Source of the DNA: an uncultured Oscillospiraceae bacterium
GTDB lineage: Bacteria > Bacillota > Clostridia > Oscillospirales > Acutalibacteraceae
Reading direction: 5' to 3'
DNA: 64,000 nucleotides
Assembly (NCBI GenBank): GCA_900541975.1
Contig: UQLR01000009.1
Span: forward strand, 1 to 64,000
Of this stretch, positions 10,989-56,111 are shown piece by piece (the first letter of the stretch is position 1; every line of letters begins with the position of its first letter). The position numbers and the translations under genes are program-made. The notes under the pieces are model-generated. The model was not told the DNA's origin, searched no databases, and saw only the letters and a list, made by a program, of their open reading frames with translations.

Positions 10989-12275
10989 TTAAGCCGTTAC
11001 AATGTGCGTGGTAGTTTGTGTACGCTCTTTTTTGATGTCTGCGCCAAGCCCCCTAAATTTATTGACAATATCTTCATAGCCGCGCTCTATGTGGACAATG
11101 TTTTCAATTTCTGTGGTACCACTTGCGCAAAGGCCGGCAATAATCATAGCCGCGCCGGCCCGCAGGTCGGTTGCCTTTACAGGCGCGGCGATCAGCTCCT
11201 CCACGCCCTCAATAATGGCAAGCCTGCCGTCGACAGAAATTTGCGCGCCCATCCTGCAAAGCTCACTGACATAGCGGAAACGGTTATCCCATACATTCTC
11301 GCTAATGATGCTGGTTCCGTTGGAAATTGACAAAAGCGCCGCAAACTGCGGCTGCATATCGGTAGGAAAGCCGGGATGCGGCATCGTTTTTATATTGCAG
11401 CGTGAAAGGCGTCCGCTGCTCTTTACATGAACGGCCTCGTCATATTCCGTAACCTGCGCGCCCATTTCGCGCAGCTTTGCAGAAATGGACTCTAAATGCT
11501 TGGGAATGACATTTTTAACCAGTACGCTGCCGTTCGTGGCAGCAGCGGCGACCATGTAGGTGCCTGCTTCGATCTGGTCGGGGATAATAGAATAAGCTGT
11601 GCCGTGCAGATGCTGCACACCTCTGATTTTGATGACATCTGTACCTGCGCCGCGGATATCCGCACCCATGGAGTTTAAAAAATTTGCAAGGTCGACAACG
11701 TGCGGTTCCTTAGCGGCGTTTTCCAGCACGGTCATACCCTGCGCCTTTACAGCCGCAAGCATGATGTTCATGGTTGCACCCACAGAAACGACATCCAAAT
11801 AGATGTGCGCTCCCACAAGCTGTTCGGCGCTTACACTAATAACCGCGCCGTTGATCAGTTCGTGCCTGACGCCCAGAGCAGCAAAGCCTTTTAAATGCTG
11901 GTCGACAGGGCGAACGCCAAAATCGCACCCGCCCGGCATGGCAACCTGCGCCTGGTTAAATTTTCCAAGGAGTGCACCTAAAAGATAATAAGAGGCCCGC
12001 ATGCCCTTGACCTGCTCGTAGGTTGCAATAGAGGTGCGTATACTGGTGGGGTCTATTTCCAAAGTGGATTTGTTAATTCTTTTGATTCTGGCGCCAATTT
12101 CCGCCAGAATATTTGCAATAAAGGTCACGTCGCTGATGTTTGGTATATTTTCAATGCGGCAGGGTTCATCGGCGAGAATAACGGCCGGAATAATGGCAAC
12201 AGCCGCATTCTTTGCCCCGCTTACGGTAACTTCCCCTTTTAGGGGAAGACCGCCGTTGATCACAAATTTATCCAA
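10989..12275 (-). CDS. murA: UDP-N-acetylglucosamine 1-carboxyvinyltransferase (first copy)
   Basis: Transfers enolpyruvate from PEP to UDP-GlcNAc, the first committed step of peptidoglycan synthesis. The TTG at 12275 is the likely start, because GGGAG is 10 nt upstream and the product then begins MDKFVINGGLPLKGEV as in homologues; a GTG three codons earlier sits on the binding site. 428 aa. The substrate motif SGAKNAA (about 18-24) and the catalytic Cys in MPGGCDFGVRPVDQHL are present, so it should be active and fosfomycin-sensitive. A second murA lies in the dcw cluster (54858); two copies are common in Bacillota. Confidence 0.95.
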   Translation of the reverse strand: MDKFVINGGLPLKGEVTVSGAKNAAVAIIPAVILADEPCRIENIPNISDVTFIANILAEIGARIKRINKSTLEIDPTSIRTSIATYEQVKGMRASYYLLGALLGKFNQAQVAMPGGCDFGVRPVDQHLKGFAALGVRHELINGAVISVSAEQLVGAHIYLDVVSVGATMNIMLAAVKAQGMTVLENAAKEPHVVDLANFLNSMGADIRGAGTDVIKIRGVQHLHGTAYSIIPDQIEAGTYMVAAAATNGSVLVKNVIPKHLESISAKLREMGAQVTEYDEAVHVKSSGRLSRCNIKTMPHPGFPTDMQPQFAALLSISNGTSIISENVWDNRFRYVSELCRMGAQISVDGRLAIIEGVEELIAAPVKATDLRAGAAMIIAGLCASGTTEIENIVHIERGYEDIVNKFRGLGADIKKERTQTTTHIVTA

Positions 12276-12469
12276 GTGTGGCACACTCCCATATCGTTTT
12301 TCAGTTGCGCCGTTTTATGTACCAACGGTGCAATCCACCTATGTATAAAAATTCCGGAACCAGTCCGGAATTTGTCGGAATTCAAAACCTGCGAATTTGT
12401 TTTTTGTTCGATATAATCAAACATATGGTTGTTTGCTGTTGCAACATTACCAAAAAAACACTACTTGCA
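12276..12469 (-). promoter_or_regulatory. murA leader with terminator-like hairpin
   Basis: The leader between the promoter and murA is about 190 nt. It contains a 10-bp perfect stem (AAATTCCGGA-CTGGT-TCCGGAATTT, 12347-12371) directly followed by TTTTTATA, which looks like an intrinsic terminator before the gene. A second hairpin (GCACCGTT / AACGGCGC, 12309-12336) lies between it and the start. A preceding GAATTCCG (about 12376) could compete for the same 3' arm. No known riboswitch was recognised. Confidence 0.45.
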
Positions 12470-48112: not shown

Positions 48113-48331
48113 ATATGCAAAACGATATATGTAAGAAAGCCGAGGCAAAAATTTCAGGTTTACCCTGTGTGCAGGATATGCTTATATTATATATGTAGAC
48201 AGAATATAGGGAAAATATCCTGTAAAAAGGGATGAATAAGTAGTATAAAATGGTAACATTTCCCGGCAGCCGGTAAAAGCGGCTGTTTATAGGGGAAGAA
48301 CCCCAGTGAGTTGGAAGGGAGTTTGTCTGAT

Positions 48332-50581
48332 ATGTCAAAAGGCGCAAATACAAAGCTGGTTCACAGGTCTGTAATTATTTTGATATTAATCCTTGTGATT
48401 GGTTTTGGCAGCGCAATATTGCGGCTTACGCAGTTAAGCGTCGTACAGGGGGAAGAACTGCAGCAGGCGGCTGTGGCGCAGCAGCTGAACGATACGACGA
48501 TCAGTGCAAGGAGAGGCACCATTTATGATACCAACGGAAAGGTGCTTGCGCAGAGCGCCACCGTTTGGAAGGTGGTATTGTCCCCAATCAATTTTGAATC
48601 TGACGAGGAACGTACCATTGTTTCCCAGGGGCTGGCAGAGATACTGGATTTGGAACAGGCGGATATTTTTGAAAAAACAAAGGAAAAGTCTTATTATGTG
48701 GTAGTAAAGCGGCAGATTGAAAGCGACGTCAGAGACGAAATTCTGAAGTTTGTAGACGAATTGGACGAAGAACATAATATTACCGGTGTAATCGACTTGA
48801 TTGAGGACTATAAACGGTACTACCCATATGGCTCGTTTGCCTCTTCCCTGATTGGTTTTACAGGCAGCGACGACCAGGGGCTTTCCGGTATAGAATATCA
48901 GTATGACGAAAGCCTGACGGGAACGCCCGGCCGGCTGGTAACGGCGAAGAATGCAAACGGGACGGAAATGCCGTTTGATTATGAGCAAAAAGTACAGGCG
49001 GAGGATGGGAACAGCCTGGTGCTGACGATTGACGAAACGATTCAGCATATTATGGAAAAGTATTTACAAAAGGGCATAGAAGAGCACAAGGTGTATAATC
49101 GCGCAGTGGCGATTATGATGGAGGTCAACACGGGCGCCATTTTAGGAATGGCGGTGGAAGAAGGGTATGACCTGAACGACCCGTTTACTTTAGTCAGCCA
49201 GACGGCAAAAGATGAGATCGCGCAGCTGCCGGAGGATGAGAAGGCTGCGGCGGAAAGCGCCGCGCTTTCCAAACAATGGAGAAACAAGGCAGTCAGCGAT
49301 ACTTACTATCCCGGTTCGGTATGGAAAATTATCACGTCTTCCATGGCGCTGGAGGAAAACCTGGTCAATGATGAATCGCGCTTTTACTGCACGGGGTCTT
49401 ATGTGCCGTTTGAGGGTGCGTCGTCTATCAGCTGTCATAATACGGCGGGACATGGTACACAGACTTTTGAAGAAGCACTGTGTAATTCCTGCAACCCAGC
49501 ATTTATGCAGATTGGTAATTTGATTGGCGCAACAAAATTCTGGGAATATTACCAGGCGTTTGGATTTTCTGAGAAAACGGGGATTGACTTGCCGGGCGAA
49601 TCGGAAGACATCTTTTTTAACGAGGACGGCTCAATGGGCCCTATGGATCTGGCGGTTGCATCGTTTGGGCAAAACTTTTCTGTAACTCCGATTCAGATGG
49701 TAACGGCTGTTTCTGCAGTTGCAAATGGGGGAAAACTTTTGCAGCCCTATATGGTAAGACAGATTCTTGACAGCGACGGCAATGTGGTAGAGTCGACAGA
49801 TACAACAGTGAAACGACAAGTCATTTCGGAAGAGGTGTCCGAGAAGCTGTGCGCTGTACTGGAGGAAAATGCGATTAGCGGTGCGGCGACAAATGGTTAC
49901 GTACAGGGGTACAGAATTGCCGGAAAAACGGGAACGTCTGAAAAACTGACTGATTCTAACGGCGATGGAATGGAGGACTATATTGCATCTTTCTGCGGCT
50001 TCGCCCCGGCGGATGATCCACAGGTAGCGCTGCTTGTATACTTTGATACTCCCACTGGCGGACAGTATTACGGAAGCCAGGTGGCAGCGCCTGTGTTTGC
50101 GGAAATTATGGCAGAAGTGCTGCCGTATCTGGAGGTCGAAACACAGTATAATGAAGAAGAACTGTCGATGCTGGATACAACAGCGGGCAATTACGTGGGC
50201 GAAAGTGTGGAGCAGGCGCAGGCTGCGGCTGAGAAAGACGGATTTGTATCTATTGTAAAGGGTGAAGGGACGACCGTTGCTGCACAGATTCCTGCGGCGG
50301 AGTCCAGAATCCCGCAGGGAGGTACGGTTGTACTTTATACAGATACAGCCGGCGTAGACGAGGATATGGTGGAAGTCCCCGATCTTACAGGGCTTTCCAT
50401 ATCGGATGTAAACAGTATAGCCTCTCAGTATAATTTAAATATCAGCATTGCAGGCGCAAGCGCTGCCGGCGAGGGAATTTCCCAATCGCAAAGTGTTGCA
50501 CAGGGAACCATGGTAAGCCAGGGGACGGTCGTTATTGTGACGTTTGTGCAGGACAGCAGCTACGGAGAACCAATCTTTTAG
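48332..50581 (+). CDS. Class B penicillin-binding protein with PASTA domains (SpoVD/FtsI type)
   Basis: 749 aa transpeptidase. N-terminal membrane anchor (VIILILILVIGFGSAILRLT), dimerisation region with RRGTIYDTNGKVLAQSATVW, transpeptidase domain with S-x-x-K as YPGSVWKIITSSMALEE (Ser in GSVWK), SxN as CNSCNPAFMQIG and K-T-G as AGKTGTSEKLTD. Two C-terminal PASTA repeats (from about 615 and 685) end with MVEVPDLTGLSISDVN and TVVIVTFVQD. With the dcw position and PASTA domains it resembles SpoVD or Pbp2B; whether it serves vegetative septation or the spore cortex cannot be told apart. Partner of FtsW. The ATG at 48332 has GGGAG 11 nt upstream; a TTG at 48311 is less likely. Confidence 0.93.
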   Translation: MSKGANTKLVHRSVIILILILVIGFGSAILRLTQLSVVQGEELQQAAVAQQLNDTTISARRGTIYDTNGKVLAQSATVWKVVLSPINFESDEERTIVSQGLAEILDLEQADIFEKTKEKSYYVVVKRQIESDVRDEILKFVDELDEEHNITGVIDLIEDYKRYYPYGSFASSLIGFTGSDDQGLSGIEYQYDESLTGTPGRLVTAKNANGTEMPFDYEQKVQAEDGNSLVLTIDETIQHIMEKYLQKGIEEHKVYNRAVAIMMEVNTGAILGMAVEEGYDLNDPFTLVSQTAKDEIAQLPEDEKAAAESAALSKQWRNKAVSDTYYPGSVWKIITSSMALEENLVNDESRFYCTGSYVPFEGASSISCHNTAGHGTQTFEEALCNSCNPAFMQIGNLIGATKFWEYYQAFGFSEKTGIDLPGESEDIFFNEDGSMGPMDLAVASFGQNFSVTPIQMVTAVSAVANGGKLLQPYMVRQILDSDGNVVESTDTTVKRQVISEEVSEKLCAVLEENAISGAATNGYVQGYRIAGKTGTSEKLTDSNGDGMEDYIASFCGFAPADDPQVALLVYFDTPTGGQYYGSQVAAPVFAEIMAEVLPYLEVETQYNEEELSMLDTTAGNYVGESVEQAQAAAEKDGFVSIVKGEGTTVAAQIPAAESRIPQGGTVVLYTDTAGVDEDMVEVPDLTGLSISDVNSIASQYNLNISIAGASAAGEGISQSQSVAQGTMVSQGTVVIVTFVQDSSYGEPIF

Positions 50582-50609
50582 TTTTAGATGAATGAAGGCA
50601 GGGAAAGCG

Positions 50610-51197
50610 ATGAAAAACAGAAAATCAGGCGGCGGCGTACCTCCATACGGGCAGATTACAGCAGTGGGAAGGCAGCCATTGGTGGAACGTTCCTTAAAAG
50701 CGCTGGAGTATGTGCTTGCAGCGGCGGGAAAAAGTGTAACGGCAAAAAGCATGTCTGTTCAAACAGAGCATCCCTGTTGCGTTGGAAGTATTACCTGTGC
50801 GGCGGGACAACGTGTGATCGACACGGTGCTGTTTACAGATGAGAGTGCCTGTCCATATGAGCAGAAGTGGCTGCAAACATGCACTGCGCTGGTTCTTCCC
50901 TATGAGGAGCCAAGAAAACAGCGGCTGGAAGAAAAGCAAAGAGAAAAAATTGTAGAATATTCCTATAATGACGACCGGGCGGACCTTGTTGCAAAGAATA
51001 TAACGCAAACGCCGGAGCATATAAATTTTGAACTTGTAGGCACAGGGCTGATTGGCCGGATTAAGTTAAAAGAAGGCTGCGGCCTTTCAGTTGAAAGTGC
51101 ACTTGCGCTTGCAGGCGCGCTGCTTGCTTCGGGTATTGCGCTGAAAGAGATAGCAGACGGGCTCAATGCCCTTGAAAGCCTGACGGCCTTTGCATAA
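50610..51197 (+). CDS. Mur-ligase-like short protein in the murE-murF slot
   Basis: 195 aa, start ATG at 50610 with AGGGA upstream. I know no named family. The C-terminal ~80 residues follow the end of the Mur ligase central domain: VEYSYNDDRADLVAKNI, then INFELVGTGLIGRIKLKEGC, GLSVESALALAGALLASGI and LKEIADGLNALES. MurE shows the same order (VxTYGxxxxADxxAxxI, xFxL, GxxxVxNxLAAxAxxLxxGI, LxxI). Upstream, VGSITCAAGQRVIDTV could be a degenerate P-loop (usual GxTGTNGKTT); the catalytic GKT(S/T) and the whole C-terminal domain are missing. It lies between the PBP and mraY where murE and murF normally stand. Possibly a non-catalytic relic or a scaffold; assignment is inference. Confidence 0.6.
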   Translation: MKNRKSGGGVPPYGQITAVGRQPLVERSLKALEYVLAAAGKSVTAKSMSVQTEHPCCVGSITCAAGQRVIDTVLFTDESACPYEQKWLQTCTALVLPYEEPRKQRLEEKQREKIVEYSYNDDRADLVAKNITQTPEHINFELVGTGLIGRIKLKEGCGLSVESALALAGALLASGIALKEIADGLNALESLTAFA

Positions 51198-51227: not shown

Positions 51228-52247
51228 ATGAACGTTGGTTGGATTTTGGGAAGTGCGGTGGTTTCGTTTGCAATTGCCGCTATTTTAGGAAAATGGCTTG
51301 TTCCTTTTTTACAGAAGCTGAAGTACGGACAGACGATTTTAGATATAGGACCAAAATGGCACAAAGGAAAACAGGGTACGCCAACTATGGGCGGTCTGAT
51401 GTTTGTAGCCAGTACCATTGTGACGTCTGTCGCCGGCGTTTTACTTTGCAGCGCGTTTGCTTCGGGAGAAGACCCTGTGTTTACACAGGTGACGCTTTCT
51501 TTCAATAAGGTATTTGCGGGCCTTGCCATGGCGGCGGCATTTGGCGCAATTGGTTTTTTTGACGATTATATTAAGGTGGTAAAGAAGCGAAATTTGGGCC
51601 TTACGGCAAAGCAAAAGCTCCTTTTGCAGTTTGGCGTTGCAGCTGCATATTTGTTTACACTGTCTTTAACCGGCGTTACTTCTGAAACGCTGCTCCCCTT
51701 TATTGGGCCGGTAGATCTGGGGTGGCTTTACTGGATATTATCTGCGATACTGATTGTGGGCGTTGTGAACGCCGTTAACCTTTCAGACGGGATAGACGGA
51801 CTGGTGGGTTCTATGACCTTTTTTGCCGCGCTTGCTTTTATGCTGATTGCTTCTACTTTGGTTTCGCAGGGAATCGGGATTATGTCTGCAGCTCTGGCAG
51901 GCGGATGCCTTGGCTTTCTGATCTGGAACTTTCATCCGGCAAAGGTTTTTATGGGCGATACGGGCTCCTTGTATCTTGGAGGTTTTTTATGCGCGTTGGC
52001 ATTTGGAATGAATATGCCGGTTATTTTAATTCCCATTGCGCTTGTATATTTGCTTGAGATGCTTTCAGTCGTTTTGCAGGTTGTATATTTTAAAGCGACA
52101 AAAGGAAAAAGGCTGTTTAAAATGAGCCCGATTCATCACCATTTTGAAATGTGCGGATGGTCGGAAGTGAAAATTGTAGTTGTGTTCAGCCTGGCAACGG
52201 CGCTATGCGGCGTGTTGGCGCTTGCGTTGGTAATGACGGGTTTTTAA
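51228..52247 (+). CDS. mraY: Phospho-N-acetylmuramoyl-pentapeptide-transferase
   Basis: 339 aa, ten predicted membrane segments. Makes lipid I from UDP-MurNAc-pentapeptide and undecaprenyl phosphate. GTPTMGGLMFVASTI, FFDDYIKVVKKRNLGLTAKQ (Asp pair), NLSDGIDGLVGSMT, FMGDTGSLYLGG and SPIHHHFEMCGW are diagnostic. GATGGAGG precedes the ATG. Confidence 0.97.
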   Translation: MNVGWILGSAVVSFAIAAILGKWLVPFLQKLKYGQTILDIGPKWHKGKQGTPTMGGLMFVASTIVTSVAGVLLCSAFASGEDPVFTQVTLSFNKVFAGLAMAAAFGAIGFFDDYIKVVKKRNLGLTAKQKLLLQFGVAAAYLFTLSLTGVTSETLLPFIGPVDLGWLYWILSAILIVGVVNAVNLSDGIDGLVGSMTFFAALAFMLIASTLVSQGIGIMSAALAGGCLGFLIWNFHPAKVFMGDTGSLYLGGFLCALAFGMNMPVILIPIALVYLLEMLSVVLQVVYFKATKGKRLFKMSPIHHHFEMCGWSEVKIVVVFSLATALCGVLALALVMTGF

Positions 52248-54727: not shown

Positions 54728-54857
54728 CCGTTGAGATGCGCCGGCTGTATGGAAACGTTTTGGCTTTTGTACCTGTGTAACAACAGACAGCCTTAAAACA
54801 TAAGATATCAAGGGTTGATTTTCAGCTCTAAAGCTTTTGTTGGAAAGGGTGTTCTGT

Positions 54858-56111
54858 GTGTCGAAGCTTATGATAGAGGGATGCAACAGACTAAACGGCA
54901 GTATTTCTGTACAGGGGGCTAAAAACAGTGCGCTCCCTGTTCTGGCGGCAACACTGTTATCAGGTGACCGCTGTGTGTTACATAACTGCCCGCACCTTTC
55001 CGATGTGGAGACTTCTATCAAAATTTTACGTTATCTGGGCTGCAACGTCAGCCGCAGCGGCAGCACCCTAACTGTGGATACACACAATATGTACCGGTAT
55101 GATATACCGGATGAGCTAATGCGGGAGATGCGATCTTCTATTGTCTTTTTAGGTGCGATTATTGCCACCATGGGAAGGGCAAGGCTGTCTTTTCCGGGCG
55201 GATGTGAGCTGGGACCGCGCCCGATTGATTTGCACTTAAAGGCGTTGCGCCTGATGGGGCTGGAAATCACGGAGCATCATGGGATTTTAGATTGCAGCGT
55301 TCCCAACGGCTTACACGGTGCAAAGGTTACGTTGTCTTTTCCAAGTGTGGGTGCTACTGAAAATATTATGCTTTCGGCTGTGCTTGCCAAGGGAACGACG
55401 ATCATTACAAACGCGGCAAGAGAACCGGAAATCTGCGACCTTGCGGACTTTTTAAACGGCTGCGGTGCAAAGATTTCCGGCGCCGGCGAAGGGACCATTT
55501 TTATTGACGGTGTAGAACGGCTTACAGGAACGCAGCATACGATTATTCCGGACAGAATTGTAACCGCAACTTATATGGCTGCAGCGGCTGTGACCGGCGG
55601 CAGTCTGGAACTGAAACATGTTGTTCCCGCGCATCTGGGTTCTATTATTTCCGTTTTTGAAGAAGCTGGTTGTACGATCCGGATCAGCGGAAATACACTG
55701 CATATTTTTGCACCGCAGCGGCTTAAGGCGGTAAAGTTTATAAGGACGATGCCGTATCCCGGTTTTCCTACAGATGCGCAGGCGCCTATTATGGCGATGA
55801 CGGCTCTTGCAAATGGAACAAGCGTGTTTGTGGAAAATATTTTTGAAAGCCGTTATAAGCATGTGGGGGAACTGTTGCGTCTTGGTGCAAATATCAAGGT
55901 GGAAGGCAGAGTTGCTGTTGTAGAGGGCGTAAAACATTTTTACGGCGCTTCTGTGGAGGCGCTTGACCTGCGCGGCAGTGCCGCATTGGTGGTAGCAGCG
56001 CTTGCGGCGGAGGGCGTAACTGAGCTTAAGGGCGTAAATTTTCTGGAACGCGGTTATGAAGATATAGAGCTTTATTTATCCAACGTGGGAGCAACGGTTA
56101 AAAAGGTGTAA
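54858..56111 (+). CDS. murA: UDP-N-acetylglucosamine 1-carboxyvinyltransferase (second copy)
   Basis: 417 aa. A GTG start at 54858 is chosen: AAAGGG lies 8 nt upstream and the product begins MSKLMIEGCNRLNG as in homologues. SIQVQGAKNSALPVL-like substrate motif near residue 19 (read: SVQGAKNSALPVLAATLL) and catalytic Cys in SFPGGCELGPRPIDLHLKAL; both are intact. It sits between murG and ftsQ, the position of murA or murB in Bacillota. Diverged from the first copy at 10989, so probably an old duplication. Confidence 0.95.
   Translation: MSKLMIEGCNRLNGSISVQGAKNSALPVLAATLLSGDRCVLHNCPHLSDVETSIKILRYLGCNVSRSGSTLTVDTHNMYRYDIPDELMREMRSSIVFLGAIIATMGRARLSFPGGCELGPRPIDLHLKALRLMGLEITEHHGILDCSVPNGLHGAKVTLSFPSVGATENIMLSAVLAKGTTIITNAAREPEICDLADFLNGCGAKISGAGEGTIFIDGVERLTGTQHTIIPDRIVTATYMAAAAVTGGSLELKHVVPAHLGSIISVFEEAGCTIRISGNTLHIFAPQRLKAVKFIRTMPYPGFPTDAQAPIMAMTALANGTSVFVENIFESRYKHVGELLRLGANIKVEGRVAVVEGVKHFYGASVEALDLRGSAALVVAALAAEGVTELKGVNFLERGYEDIELYLSNVGATVKKV

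Follow-up and report, generated by a model that had tools for sequence, protein, structure and literature searches.

The 195-residue protein encoded between the class B PBP gene and mraY in the 64,000-nucleotide stretch of DNA analysed here (hereafter the window; uncultured Oscillospiraceae bacterium, contig UQLR01000009.1) is in all likelihood a selected, non-catalytic descendant of MurE. Its descent from the MurE that fills the same slot in other members of the order is shown, at the level of sequence, by profile comparison and phylogeny. As to its role, the reading we prefer, with a probability of roughly one half, is that of a MurE pseudoenzyme kept for a non-catalytic role, most likely as an adaptor among the lipid II enzymes. 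The features referred to below are:

48311..50581, plus strand: class B PBP gene, upstream (ORF with mechanically listed start; Pfam dimerisation, transpeptidase and PASTA domains)
50610..51197, plus strand: short MurE-derived protein, Mur ligase central domain only (195 codons and a stop; ORF, homologues in the same slot, model and profiles)
50658..50693, plus strand: degenerate equivalent of the ATP-binding P-loop, about residues 17-28 (alignment with the P-loop of slot MurE; TAVGRQ...)
50946..51194, plus strand: C-terminal lobe, residues 113-195, a three-stranded sheet with two helices; the most conserved part
50958..51059, plus strand: YS..ADxxAKN...FExxGxGxIGR segment, residues 117-150 including Arg150 (alignment columns)
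51228..52247, plus strand: downstream neighbour, which we take to be mraY (ORF; homologue at the same place in relatives)

The ORF that a preliminary description had placed between the class B PBP gene and mraY was confirmed at 50610-51197. It starts 28 bp after the stop of the PBP gene and ends 30 bp before the start of mraY, which is all the room that is left there for a ligase C-terminal domain. An alternative in-frame ATG at 50592 would give 6 additional residues (the 201-aa form), while the start at 50610 is that of P0001 (92% identity) and P0002 (84%), the only two close proteins found in a single-sequence protein search. These two are identical to each other in the last ~120 residues; they diverge over the first ~70, a stretch in which P0001 is the same as the window protein, and the pattern looks like recombination or a chimera. 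Two further ORFs of the window, at 10989-12314 (minus strand) and 54837-56111 (plus strand), presumably encode MurA-like proteins, one in the wall gene cluster and the other elsewhere.

Sequence models of known families capture the protein poorly. A Pfam search of the window ORF gave no family above its cut-off, and at E 0.01 none of 47 members of the family matched any Pfam entry, PF08245 (Mur ligase middle domain) included. Generic profiles favour MurF: the NCBIfam murF model TIGR01143 matched the 201-aa form over residues 95-195 with E=6e-4, and the murF model matched 15 of the 47 members. The best murE model reached E 0.03 and 12.8 bits against the window protein, and TIGR01085 (MurE; curated cut-off 257.3 bits) was absent from the NCBIfam matches of the window. 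The family is new to Pfam, and its members, among whose named sources is the genus Caproiciproducens, have so far been called hypothetical proteins or have received automatic Mur synthase names, such as UDP-N-acetylmuramyl pentapeptide synthase.

The AlphaFold model (pLDDT 86.0, pTM 0.85) has a confident Mur ligase central-domain fold of the PF08245 type, and its matches in the PDB are MurF, MurC and MurE, with PaMurF (4cvk) at the top both by sequence and by fold. Residues 8-195 of the model align with residues 95-324 of MurF (4cvm). The comparison with Mur ligase structures that the preliminary description had called for thus supports its view of a degenerate Mur ligase, as do the motif patterns below, but the likeness is not confined to the C-terminal 80 residues, as had been thought. 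Conservation is uneven along the chain, the mean frequency of the top residue being 0.53 for residues 113-190 and 0.31 for residues 1-112.

The slot in related organisms was located by using the PBP gene as anchor, since a scan of genome contigs with the short protein as query, which is too insensitive for this purpose, returned no match. Among the best 30 PBP loci from 300 genomes of one family, the slot held a homologue of the short ORF in 10, no such ORF in 19 and an unrelated 122-aa ORF in one; a full MurE was found in none of these 30. The 122-aa ORF (G191, L052) presumably encodes a protein resembling the 23S rRNA intervening protein. A profile built from 13 sequences and run against 398 genomes from the family of the closest relative gave matches in 244, and the matches listed fell for the most part into short frames on the one hand and ~480-500 aa frames on the other. 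At least 45 related species have a short homologue in the slot (145-201 aa, with starts picked by script), a number which is a minimum and not a frequency, as the loci were fetched by choice from among the matches listed. All 45 collected short forms are preceded by the PBP gene and followed by mraY, both in the same orientation, so that orthologues at the same locus in related Clostridia, for which a search had been suggested, were indeed found. Apart from P0001 and P0002, the window protein is 18-32% identical to its orthologues. In other members of the order the slot is full, with the arrangement PBP-murE-murF-mraY or PBP-murE-mraY and complete enzymes. One full-length slot murE (G150, L113) has an in-frame stop with MurE similarity on both sides, which may be a broken gene or a sequence error.

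The motifs needed for catalysis are missing from the short forms. The P-loop pattern GT(N/K)GK(T/S) occurs in none of the 46 short forms (window included), compared with 14 of 14 slot MurE rows and all 23 ectopic MurE, i.e. MurE encoded away from the slot; a looser P-loop pattern was found in one of the 46. Patterns for the catalytic Glu, the Lys region, fNvyN, DYAH and GCGG were each found in 0 of 46 and the DH pattern in one, whereas all of these are present in 12-14 of the 14 slot MurE rows. The patterns must be regarded as rough, because among the 23 ectopic MurE, which all have the P-loop, DH and DYAH patterns and nearly all the Lys region (22; fNvyN 17), the catalytic Glu pattern was seen in just 12 and GCGG in one. 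The C-terminal ligase domain, as judged by the DYAH motif, is absent from 46 of 46 short forms and present in 14/14 slot MurE rows and 23/23 ectopic MurE. The loss of both the P-loop and this domain had been correctly noted before; the proposed degenerate P-loop at VGSITCAAGQ was, on the other hand, misplaced, the equivalent stretch lying at about residues 17-28. GK(S/T) strings do occur in four short forms, that of the window at residue 40 and away from the place of the P-loop, and one relative (L076) has a TGKS string near that place. The only Mur-type P-loop pattern found across the whole window belongs to a minus-strand FolC-like ORF at ~28430.

Intact murE genes are found elsewhere in most of the relatives with a short slot gene. 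In 42 of the 45 short-slot genomes (19/20 and 23/25) a murE match that exceeds the curated cut-off is located outside the slot; the exceptions are G025, an assembly of 1.0 Mb, G216, and G088, which has two murE halves at contig ends. The murE model also found murE in all three empty-slot genomes to which it was applied, and a Mur_ligase_M domain search of six further relatives gave 5, 5, 5, 3, 5 and 2 matches. Of five full-slot genomes, four have the slot murE alone over the cut-off. The fifth, G012 (L116, L121, L145), has two complete murE, the slot copy being followed by murF and the other copy lying elsewhere; it was considered as a clean intermediate and rejected, as its ectopic copy falls off the branch of the other ectopic murE. 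Flanking 45 ectopic murE loci, 35 MurF ORFs were found. The earlier proposal that the short gene replaces murE-murF needs correction: the protein descends from MurE and not from MurF, and the murE of the relatives, often with murF behind it, is located elsewhere.

Several lines of analysis point to MurE of the slot as the ancestor. In a first tree of 78 rows, made from the shared domain with ORFs longer than 230 aa trimmed to about 190 aa, the 46 short forms make up one clade (100/99), which joins seven slot MurE (100/99) and is separate from 23 ectopic MurE and two MurF. Since this tree contains long branches, profiles were compared as well. Slot MurE was the best-scoring profile for 46 of 46 short forms, with median scores of 51.9 bits for slot MurE, 8.6 for slot MurF, 7.0 for ectopic MurF and -2.0 for ectopic MurE; the corresponding values for the window protein are 68.6, 15.4, 8.9 and 1.7 bits. 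The mean identity in the C-terminal half is 34.4% to slot MurE, 19.1% to ectopic MurE and 18.7% to MurF. Derivation from MurF, the family preferred by the generic profiles, is thereby ruled out, since with profiles made from the MurE and MurF of related organisms the short forms are nowhere near closer to MurF (median 8.6 versus 51.9 bits). As regards sampling, the 16 slot MurE rows represent 15 genomes and the 14 rows of the profile 13 genomes (L152 and L164 are one gene); L113 and L111, which is cut by a contig end, entered the trees as pieces and were excluded from the slot MurE profile, and L078, with its in-frame stop, was omitted from alignment A2. A second tree used 21 of the 46 short forms.

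A recent frameshift of murE is ruled out as the origin of the short gene, because the slot could not accommodate the remainder of murE and the clade of short forms is old. The possibility raised earlier, that relatives would hold a complete murE in the slot that was broken here by a recent indel, is accordingly right for the slot in other members of the order, and wrong for the indel, given an old clade of at least 45 species. In a host tree of PBP and MraY (86 rows, a quick method with SH-aLRT support only; L007, L008 and L052, whose slot has the unrelated 122-aa ORF, excluded) the 46 short-slot and 27 empty-slot rows group together at 99, and all nine full-slot rows fall outside this group. 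The short label changes 9 times on this tree, and well supported branches force at least 8 of these changes. The simplest history has a single reduction and then repeated complete loss, and because of this repeated loss the short gene seems to be dispensable in many lineages. In the 27 empty slots, remnants of murE were sought and found in none (best E 3.5).

Loss on this scale raises the question of whether the short gene is a decaying relic, a functionless leftover of murE on its way out. The fast divergence of the protein (18-32% identity, as above), its variable length, the repeated complete loss and one frame with a stop, an in-frame TGA near the end of the gene in L078 (G301), agree with such decay. 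That stop is, however, the sole internal one among the collected genes, the other 44 of 45 being free of it, and the predicted fold is well defined. Selection was estimated by the Nei-Gojobori method on pairs of relatives, none of which includes the window gene, for which no close DNA relative was found. The four pairs with lowest dS (0.39, 0.64, 0.77 and 1.05; two share one sequence) have dN/dS of 0.15, 0.12, 0.19 and 0.12, with Fisher p from 1.4e-12 to 3.2e-22; over all 13 pairs, dS was not estimable in two and dN/dS was 0.08-0.22 in the other 11. In the same four pairs the neighbours have dN/dS of 0.030-0.054 (PBP) and 0.027-0.064 (MraY), and the ratio of the short gene's dN to the dN of PBP or MraY ranges from 1.0 to 4.8. 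The short protein is thus constrained, though less so than its neighbours. Pooled over the four pairs, dN/dS is 0.19 for the N-terminal and 0.11 for the C-terminal part, with one pair in which the C-terminal part is not lower. That the gene is kept under selection, as had been supposed, is borne out for the family by this purifying selection among relatives, and on the same relatives the short forms appear to be pseudoenzymes in the usual sense, having lost catalytic motifs in a frame kept by selection. Given these dN/dS values, a relic is improbable.

The same values also weigh against a spacer, i.e. a frame kept open solely to carry translation from PBP to mraY and to leave transcription uncut. 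The position in the middle of a compact operon, with the short forms separated from the PBP gene by a median of 42 bp and from mraY by a median of 65 bp (for L090 the distance to the PBP gene is mis-called), would suit this explanation. The amino acid sequence of a spacer would be free to vary, yet the observed dN/dS is well under 1, and in 27 of 27 empty-slot relatives mraY follows the PBP gene after 27-261 bp without the short ORF. We therefore consider a spacer highly improbable.

The residues that have been kept are those of slot MurE. In alignment columns, which were used instead of a badly spaced YS..AD text pattern (7/46), residues typical of slot MurE are retained in the 46 short forms as follows: Ala124 in 46, Asp125 in 45, Arg150 in 46, Ser118 in 40 and Asn130 in 39. 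Arg150 is also present in all 16 slot MurE rows (15 genomes), but in 0 of 23 ectopic MurE and 0 of 2 MurF; Asp125 is found in 6 of the 23 ectopic MurE. The FE..IGR pattern occurs in 42 of 46 short forms, 7 of 14 slot MurE rows and 0 of 23 ectopic MurE. Asp125 and Arg150 may be conserved for fold stability only.

A second group of short slot proteins was found in four genomes of the same order (G667, G415, G520 and G583; L159-L162), where a protein of ~180 aa lies between PBP and mraY, the PBP being ~37% identical to that of the window. The P-loop pattern is absent from 4/4 of these proteins, slot MurE is the best profile for 4/4, and Arg150 is present in 4/4 and in 0 of 5 MurE-type proteins of the same genomes; the FE..IGR pattern is seen in 1/4. 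Their dN/dS is 0.18-0.35 (three pairs), and the model of a member (pLDDT 70.7, 86-95 in the C-terminal lobe) also matches MurF, MurC and MurE. All four genomes have murE matches over the cut-off elsewhere; there are two such matches in each genome, the second lying in frames of 525-875 aa. In a MurE tree the second group falls among full-length slot MurE and outside the main clade, and the host tree separates it from the main short forms, while a single clade for both groups is not rejected by the AU test (p 0.30). A separate, parallel reduction of slot MurE is therefore likely, though not proven.

The retention in the slot of a MurE stripped of its catalytic motifs suggests a second, non-enzymatic function for MurE. 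In the history that we find most plausible, catalysis would have passed, in an ancestor of the clade, to a murE located outside the slot and in most cases followed by murF. The slot murE would then have shrunk to its central domain, losing ATP binding and ligase chemistry, with the domain retained for the second role of slot MurE, most likely that of an adaptor. The conserved C-terminal lobe may bind a partner from the same operon (MraY, MurG or PBP) or the relocated MurE or MurF, and the adaptor would help to keep together the enzymes of lipid II synthesis. Expression of the protein, its binding to a partner and the choice of that partner are all inferred. An adaptor role is pointed to by the position in the lipid II operon, by the slot-specific residue and by the binding of Mur ligases to MurG, as reported in PMC6420597 for the Bordetella pertussis MurE-MurF fusion, which resembles the proposed adaptor in that Mur ligases act inside a complex, but in which both ligases are active enzymes.

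Two other roles for a selected protein have to be weighed against the adaptor. It may be a sensor or allosteric regulator that binds a wall precursor or nucleotide without turnover and adjusts MraY, PBP or the relocated MurE. The central domain lines the active site of Mur ligases and its fold is kept in the model, and dispensability in many lineages would suit a regulator. None of the 46 short forms, however, has the P-loop pattern, the protein lacks an N-terminal UDP-sugar-binding domain, and conservation peaks in the C-terminal lobe rather than at the former ATP site, all of which makes a sensor unlikely. For the same reason, namely the absence of the N-terminal UDP-binding domain, binding of UDP-MurNAc peptides, which had been offered as one possible function, appears less likely. 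Alternatively, the short protein may be a subunit of the ectopic MurE, in a mixed dimer whose activity it tunes. Pseudoenzymes often regulate active paralogues, and an ectopic murE is present in 42 of 45 genomes; but the ectopic MurE belongs to a different branch, without Arg150 in 23 of 23, and all three empty-slot genomes that were tested have it but no short form, so that this role is rather unlikely as well. The adaptor reading may be taken further: two lineages would each have cut slot MurE to the same minimal domain while keeping slot-specific residues, the protein would connect MraY and the division PBP with the soluble Mur ligases that have been relocated, and the MurE of this order would have had a second, non-catalytic function where lipid II is synthesised. 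We regard this extended version as tentative and, on balance, doubtful.

The short form shares with slot MurE, the UDP-MurNAc-tripeptide ligase of the order, its place between PBP and mraY, a homologous central domain and the YS..AD..AKN..FE..G..IGR segment, but has 195 instead of about 490 residues and lacks the N- and C-terminal domains, the P-loop, the catalytic Glu and the Lys-region motif. With MurF it has in common the central-domain fold, and MurF is its best generic family match (TIGR01143, E=6e-4), while the slot and ectopic MurF profiles score far below slot MurE. PAP11, the MurE-like protein of the plastid RNA polymerase, is a full-length plastid protein bound to RNA polymerase, and differs from the minimal central domain encoded here in a wall operon. 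No short MurE pseudoenzyme is described in the available portions of the matches listed in our literature search.

The automatic Mur synthase names given to members of the family would lead to MurE and MurF being miscounted in pathway annotation. Possible non-catalytic roles of Mur ligases, for instance in a complex with MraY and MurG, are hard to test because the ligases are essential. In these bacteria evolution appears to have split catalysis, carried by one gene, from a leftover domain, carried by another, which is dispensable in some lineages.
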